Shown here: piece by piece, positions 33,409 through 34,850 of the stretch | Layout: each line of letters begins with the position of its first letter | Position numbering within the stretch: the first letter of the stretch is position 1 | Assembly: GCA_945878605.1 (NCBI GenBank) | Contig: CAMCTR010000004.1 | Coordinates: forward strand, 1 to 34,850 | Length of the DNA: 34,850 nucleotides | Reading direction: 5' to 3' | Origin: Candidatus Methylopumilus universalis | Lineage (GTDB): Bacteria > Pseudomonadota > Gammaproteobacteria > Burkholderiales > Methylophilaceae | Notes under the pieces: model-generated | What the model was told of the DNA's origin: nothing | Databases searched by the model: none | Seen by the model: the letters and a program-made list of their open reading frames with translations, nothing else | Translations under genes and position numbers: made by a program

Positions 33409-33843
33409 ATGGCCTTATTTAATCCAACTCGCGACCAAGTAAGACAATTCTTTTTTGATACTTGGGCTAAATTTAACGCTAATCAAACGCTTACGGATTT
33501 GGAGGCGATTGCCTTGCAGATCATCCATATGCATCCTGAGTACCATGGAGTATTAGATGCTCCAGAGCGTTATATTGAGCAAGCTTACTTTCCTGAGATG
33601 GGCGAAACCAACCCGTTTTTGCATATGAGTTTGCATATATCCGTGCTTGAGCAAGTGGCGATTAATCAACCGATTGGAATTGCACCTGCTTATCAGGCAC
33701 TCAAGCTCAAGCATGGCAACGAATCAGACGCACAGCATGATTTAATGGATTGCCTCGCTGAAACGATTTGGCAAGCCCAGCGCGATAGTGCGCCACCTAA
33801 TTCCGAAGCTTATGTGGCGTGTTTGCAAGCCAAAGTTTATTAG
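33409..33843 (+). CDS. DUF1841 family protein
   Basis: MALFNPTRDQVRQFFFDTWAKFNANQTLTDLEAIALQIIHMHPEYHGVLDAPERYIEQAYFPEMGETNPFLHMSLHISVLEQ. Confidence 0.88.
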   Translation: MALFNPTRDQVRQFFFDTWAKFNANQTLTDLEAIALQIIHMHPEYHGVLDAPERYIEQAYFPEMGETNPFLHMSLHISVLEQVAINQPIGIAPAYQALKLKHGNESDAQHDLMDCLAETIWQAQRDSAPPNSEAYVACLQAKVY

Positions 33844-33859
33844 CTAACAAATTTTAGTC

Positions 33860-33884
33860 GGAACCAAACTTTTTTTATTGTCTA
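33860..33884 (+). promoter_or_regulatory. Candidate ECF-sigma-type promoter for the bufferin-like gene
   Basis: GGAAC (33860-33864), 15-nt spacer, GTCTA (33880-33884); ATG at 33938 with SD AGGGAGA. Confidence 0.3.
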
Positions 33885-33937
33885 TGTTGTTTAAAGCTAC
33901 TCATGCGGTAAAGTTCTATTCTTATAGGGAGAAATTC

Positions 33938-34297
33938 ATGTCTGCATCAAAAAATACCTTAGCATTAATGGTTGGCAGTGCATTGGCTGCAACAGTTTTA
34001 TCAACATCAGTGCAAGCAAATGAAAATCCATTTAGCGCAAAGCCTTTGGCTTCTGGCTATATGGTGGCCGATGCAAGTAATCCCAACAAAATGAAAGATG
34101 GACAGTGTGCTGCAGGCAAATGCGGTGCAACGCAAAAGCCAAAGAAGGAAAAAGCTAAAGAAGGCTTGTGCAATGCTGAGAAAATGAAAGATGGTGCTTG
34201 CAGTTCGGAAATGCGTAATACTGCTAAAAAAGCTAAAGAGGGCGCTTGCCATGCTGAAAAAGCCAAAGAAGGCGCTTGTCACGCAGATAAGAAATAA
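33938..34297 (+). CDS. Sec-exported Cys-repeat small protein, bufferin/HvfA-like MNIO (DUF692) substrate candidate
   Basis: Signal peptide [27 protein letters not shown], then [16 protein letters not shown] and six Cys in DGQC, AGKCG, EGLC, DGAC, EGAC, EGAC. Followed immediately by a DUF692 gene. The ORF-track start at 33878 is a TTG upstream of the SD-preceded ATG. Confidence 0.82.
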
Positions 34298-34314: not shown

Positions 34315-34850
34315 ATGCAGCAATTTCAAAATAAGCATACTGCTGGATTGGGCTTGAAGCGTGAATTAATTCCGCAAATTCAAGCGCAGTTTGGCAAACC
34401 AGAAATTGCTGCCATTGATTTTTTAGAAATCGCGCCAGAAAACTGGATAGGGGCTGGCGGTAAAGGGGCTAAACAACTTGATTGGTTTGCCGAGTGGTAT
34501 CCTCTAGTTTGTCATGGATTGTCGCTTTCACTCGGCGGGCCTGATCCGCTTAACATTCCTTTTTTACATCAAGTAAAACACTTTCTCGACACCCATCAAA
34601 TATCGCTTTATACCGAGCATTTAAGTTATTGCGCGGCTGATGGCTTTTTGTACGATTTATTGCCAATTCCTTTTACCGAAGAAGCTGTGCATCATGTGGC
34701 AAGCCGCATTAAGCAGACTCAGGATATTTTAGAGCGACGGATTGCAGTGGAAAACGCTTCTTACTATGTCGCAGCGCCAATCTCTGAAATGGACGAACTC
34801 AGCTTTATTAAAGCGGTGCTTCAAGAAGCCGATTGCGATTGGCATTTGGA
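34315..34850 (+). CDS. DUF692/MNIO (multinuclear non-heme iron oxidative) family enzyme, 3'-truncated by window end
   Basis: Translated directly, not in ORF track: [49 protein letters not shown]...[15 protein letters not shown]...LYTEHLSYC...[27 protein letters not shown]...IAVENASYY...EADCDWHL. Frame open to the last base. Confidence 0.92.

Follow-up and report, generated by a model that had tools for sequence, protein, structure and literature searches.

At the right end of the window (the whole stretch of 34,850 nucleotides analysed here, which is one entire contig, C4, of a draft genome that is 81% complete) a small gene encoding a cysteine-repeat peptide lies just ahead of a DUF692 gene, and it raises the question of what happens to a substrate of this type when the glycine that commonly follows its cysteines is nearly all replaced. 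What has been learned to date about how thiooxazole-forming MNIOs choose their cysteines comes mostly from mutants of a single enzyme. The sequence-only reading had recognised a DUF692/MNIO substrate whose characterised relatives carry EGKCG-like repeats, which agrees with the published systems (PMC12668002, PMC13419390, PMC12538549), and had proposed that it might represent a divergent class. The window gene is a genuine variant, shared across its lineage, of a system already known, and it is matched by a change in the MNIO pocket; from the sequences compared, the likely mechanism is conversion of its cysteines to 5-thiooxazoles for binding of copper, with an altered preference for the residues around them. 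A search of the open literature found nothing on Methylophilaceae together with DUF692 or MNIO, and the supplementary datasets of PMC12668002 may list the variant.

The precursor gene and its neighbours

The relevant features of the window are as follows.

33409..33843, + strand: DUF1841 gene (Pfam), the upstream neighbour
33938..34297, + strand: HvfA-type precursor peptide gene; 119 aa, ATG start, six Cys in [E/D/A]G-x-C units
33938..34018, + strand: residues 1-27, probably a Sec signal peptide with SVQA at its end, from reading of the sequence
34097..34126, + strand: N-terminal Cys doublet, the part nearest to canonical [D/E]GKCG-xGKCG
34154..34183, + strand: unit with Asn at Cys+1; Asn kept in four congeners
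34184..34213, + strand: unit with Ser at Cys+1; Ser kept in four congeners
34232..34261, + strand: first unit with His at Cys+1; L002 has Gln, and L003 and L004 are without the unit
34262..34291, + strand: second unit with His at Cys+1; His kept in four congeners
34315..34848, + strand: HvfB-type MNIO (DUF692) gene; 178 aa present, cut by the contig end

Retranslation reproduces exactly the six cysteine contexts reported earlier, which from the N- to the C-terminus are QCA, KCG, LCN, ACS, ACH and ACH, with Gly at Cys+1 for one cysteine of the six (the single GKCG), and the last two units do read AKEGACHA(E/D)K. The frame [E/D/A]G-x-C is retained despite there being one GKCG per six cysteines. 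Cys57 and Cys62 form a doublet (QCAAGKCG) with a spacing of five residues, tighter than the later singleton units at Cys78, Cys88, Cys104 and Cys114, which are 10–16 residues apart. The putative signal peptide probably doubles as the leader, by analogy with HvfA (PMC13419390). At an E-value of 1 or better, no NCBIfam model recognises the window precursor, NF050137 and NF050188 included, and the precursor of a close relative (L003) scores 18.7 bits against the HvfA model, for which the cut-off is 95. KCG-based profiles miss such precursors, and the class is therefore wider than those models report.

The precursor stop codon and the MNIO start are separated by 17 bases. The fold of the MNIO is settled by family models (Pfam PF05114 at 3.1e-58; NCBIfam NF003818 at 4.3e-72), although the fragment falls under the NF003818 cut-off because it is truncated. 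Three congeneric contigs from uncultured Methylophilaceae (L002-L004) carry a counterpart of the precursor at 82–85% identity, a complete MNIO, and downstream of it a DUF2063/HvfC-type partner; the window ends before that position. The order precursor, MNIO, HvfC-type partner is seen directly in the intact relatives, and nearly always so across the Methylophilaceae. The intact L003 MNIO reaches 391 bits with the HvfB equivalog model (cut-off 360) but only 249 with that of BufB (cut-off 310), and the L003 partner reaches 251 with that of HvfC (cut-off 142).

The gene is best explained as coding for an HvfA/oxazolin-type ("captophorin") precursor, from which a secreted RiPP that would bind and handle copper is made. 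The MNIO and its HvfC-type partner would oxidise the repeat cysteines to 5-thiooxazoles before Sec export. We consider it very improbable that the enzyme's product is instead a different heterocycle, or a peptide serving some metal other than copper. Many reactions are represented across the MNIO superfamily (PMC12452194), pocket residues differ in the Methylophilaceae (see below), and a His beside Cys could suit another metal, but L003 passes the equivalog cut-offs for both HvfB and HvfC, the MNIOs conserve the catalytic Asp and the metal-ligand motifs, and 5-thiooxazole is made by all characterised MNIO-PME1 pairs (PMC12668002).

The DUF1841 gene is present upstream at 25 of the 30 Methylophilaceae loci with enough upstream DNA. 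In most Methylophilaceae a zf-HC2 anti-sigma gene, present upstream at 90 of 106 loci, directly precedes the precursor, often with an ECF sigma gene before it; both are absent from the window's genus (window 33843-33938; L002-L004), in which DUF1841 abuts the precursor. GGAAC-N-TC, as an ECF-type promoter ahead of the precursor gene, was considered and dropped, its frequency being no higher than in shuffles. The nth-DUF1841 neighbourhood is shared by two gammaproteobacterial loci (L007 and L008), whose precursors have acidic EF-hand-like inserts between the Cys repeats.

Residues flanking the repeat cysteines

The three congeners keep the Cys pattern, with six cysteines, or five in the two relatives without one unit, and most of the Cys+1 residues (A, G, N, S, H) are maintained across them. 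A related precursor was found in 104 of 187 Methylophilaceae genomes. The motif is thus not noise of one MAG: related precursors occur in the three congeners and in roughly a hundred other members of the Methylophilaceae.

Precursors were collected by a search with the window protein or with one mixed profile, giving 106 from Methylophilaceae for comparison with a set of 116 drawn from other families within this order and class; profile matches had to contain [x]G/A-x-C units and adjoin an MNIO, with Cys+1 left free. Gly occupies Cys+1 at only 277 of 582 repeat cysteines in the Methylophilaceae, compared with 667 of 690 (97%) in the other families; the Methylophilaceae substitutes include Ser (231), His (42), Ala (18) and Asn (8), and His at this position (42/582 vs 0/690) is confined to the Methylophilaceae in this sample. 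Loci of other families lacking a paired MNIO or precursor, which were left out of the count and served as a check on collection bias, are also mostly Cys-Gly. Scoring of Cys+1 in precursors beside DUF692 genes, as the sequence-only reading had proposed, thus makes the non-Gly form the family norm. Its suggestion of a divergent class stands, given the 97% Cys-Gly outside the Methylophilaceae, but not as something peculiar to this gene, since at least one non-Gly Cys+1 occurs in 81 of the 106 family precursors. The motif therefore departs from the class as a whole but is typical of the Methylophilaceae. Two loci, L005 (a Methylovulum MAG, with an incomplete enzyme) and L123, have GGCSGK units.

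The remainder of the unit is conserved. Cys is retained in 416 of 432 E/DG units of the Methylophilaceae precursors, and Gly at Cys-2 accompanies 569 of 589 cysteines, so that Gly has been lost at Cys+1 in particular and not in general. The second Cys of the doublet has Gly at +1 in 89 of 106 precursors. In four precursors (L028, L074, L091 and L094) the Cys of later units is lost and the N-terminal doublet kept. Lys at Cys-1 never occurs with His, Asn, Gln or Lys at +1 in the Methylophilaceae (0/324 vs 54/258), as would be expected if both side chains occupy a shared pocket.

Probable substrate-contact positions of the MNIO

The enzyme for which such a pocket has been modelled is FonB, where Phe250 contacts substrate Lys3 and Gly5, and Arg15 and Arg16 flank substrate Glu1 (PMC12668002). 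When the change was made in both repeats, Gly and Ala were the only residues that FonB accepted at Cys+1, and its F250D variant had a broader tolerance at Cys-1; a single repeat was left unmodified in the minimal FonA assay (PMC12668002).

Columns 15 and 260 of our MNIO alignment rank first and second for difference between Methylophilaceae and other families, and by alignment and motif they are FonB Arg15 and Phe250; the RR pair is found only at 15-16 and the DF pair only at 259-260, and Asp259 aligns with MbnB Asp240. Column 15 is Arg in 94% of enzymes outside the Methylophilaceae and Lys in 101 of 102 (99%) inside. Column 260 is Phe in 92% outside (Phe or Tyr in 107/114) and in 1 of 101 inside, where Ser, Asn or Thr replaces it. 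Across the MNIOs, the His/Glu/Asp residues of the metal-ligand motifs vary little or not at all, and the same holds for Asp259. The window MNIO has Lys in the motif GLGLKR where other families have Arg15; residue 260 lies beyond its fragment, and is Thr in the nearest relatives L002-L004, such that the congeners have Lys15, Arg16 and Thr260 and do not match the FonB set of Arg15, Arg16 and Phe250. Further columns separate the Methylophilaceae, with Arg56 lost, Asp80 to Asn, His111 to Tyr and His190 to Phe (L003 numbering).

The sole Methylophilaceae enzyme with Phe at column 260 (L048) pairs with a precursor in which every repeat Cys is followed by Gly. Outside the family, non-Gly sites are present in 4 of 7 precursors with non-Phe/Tyr enzymes and in 7 of 107 with Phe/Tyr enzymes (Fisher p=0.0015), although repeats and relatives are not independent and p-values of this kind therefore overstate the case; one of these loci, L224, has Leu at column 260 and KCA or KCS at all six sites. 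As a counter-example to a strict Phe rule, Phe260 is retained in the L123 enzyme, yet its precursor has GGCSG units. Within the Methylophilaceae, non-Phe enzymes accompany 24 precursors that have Gly throughout, and enzymes with Ser260 give a mixed picture, so that loss of Phe looks permissive and not sufficient.

The Methylophilaceae MNIOs form one clade with 98% SH-aLRT support in a quick tree with long branches, and most of the association between enzyme and motif is therefore one event. The tree requires seven changes at the Phe column; among four well-supported independent pairs three are concordant and none opposed, too few for significance. One could accordingly suppose that one ancestral enzyme acquired several substitutions and that selection on the repeats relaxed separately, as unrelated drift of the lineage. 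The single clade, the strong differences at columns 80, 190, 56 and 111 and the small number of independent pairs fit such a history, which we nonetheless judge quite unlikely. Of three sites already named as substrate contacts (PMC12668002), two take the first two ranks in the column comparison, Phe losses outside the clade lean toward non-Gly contexts too, and the exclusion between -1 and +1 suggests a shared pocket.

A different possibility is that only the doublet cysteines, Cys57 and Cys62, become thiooxazoles and that the later Cys-Asn, Cys-Ser and Cys-His sites are free thiols, serving as thiol/His metal ligands or as spacers. We regard this as unlikely, if well short of negligible. FonB was blocked by +1 variants other than Ala in the double-variant test and left a single-repeat minimal peptide unmodified (PMC12668002), and the later units of the window precursor are singletons; the doublet is also the most conserved part, and the four precursors noted above lost later cysteines. 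FonB, however, is a Phe enzyme whereas the Methylophilaceae enzymes are without Phe, minimal substrates differ from full-length multi-repeat ones, and the later cysteines are kept in almost all units, with Gly at -2.

We favour, as rather probable, a lineage-wide captophorin variant in which the MNIO pocket and its substrate evolved in step and conversion presumably still reaches most cysteines or all of them. The pocket contacting the Cys-flanking residues has been altered by replacement of Phe260 with a smaller or polar residue and of Arg15 with Lys, which may permit the new contexts, and the substrate would have drifted alongside from EGKCG to EG[S/A/N/K]C[S/H/N/A/G], with cysteines in the new contexts still modified and the product still handling copper. 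Relaxed enzyme specificity, suggested earlier from the precursor, or a shifted one, gains support from these changes at the equivalents of FonB Arg15 and Phe250. A stronger version, in which a Lys15, non-Phe MNIO defines a distinct subclass forming 5-thiooxazoles at Cys-Ser, Cys-Asn and Cys-His, with the thiooxazole sulfur and adjacent His binding copper, is possible but tentative. The Methylophilaceae appear to be a natural experiment, in which about a hundred enzyme-substrate pairs have changed at the same two contacts.

Relationship to characterised MNIO systems

Among systems with varied Cys flanks, the bufferins Buf1 (DUF2282) and Buf2 (Cys-Lys) resemble this locus in having an MNIO and a DUF2063 partner, and in copper buffering, which here would be by extension. 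Membership of the DUF2282 bufferins is rejected, the window precursor being without a DUF2282 or other Pfam match. The Buf_EGKCG/oxazolin family (PMC12452194) similarly has precursors bearing Sec signals (here a probable one), an MNIO and a DUF2063 partner, but it is defined by EGKCG, and one of its types has 17-residue repeats with two motifs each, in contrast to the single-Cys units of about 10 residues in the window precursor.

The closest comparisons are with fontiphorin and HvfA. Fontiphorin FonABC and the captophorins (PMC12668002) share the type of enzyme and partner and the E-G-x-C frame; FonB has Arg15 and Phe250 and took only Gly or Ala after Cys when both repeats were varied, whereas the Methylophilaceae have Lys and a non-Phe residue with Ser, His or Asn after Cys. 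HvfA/oxazolin of the Haemophilus influenzae hvf operon (PMC13419390) is alike in its Sec-type N-terminus, a probable one in the window precursor, its Cys repeats and the order of precursor, MNIO and partner, and has HvfB and HvfC family matches in common with the relatives of the window locus. It differs in that HvfA has three AEGKCGEGKCG motifs, whereas the window precursor has one Cys-Gly followed by more widely spaced units.
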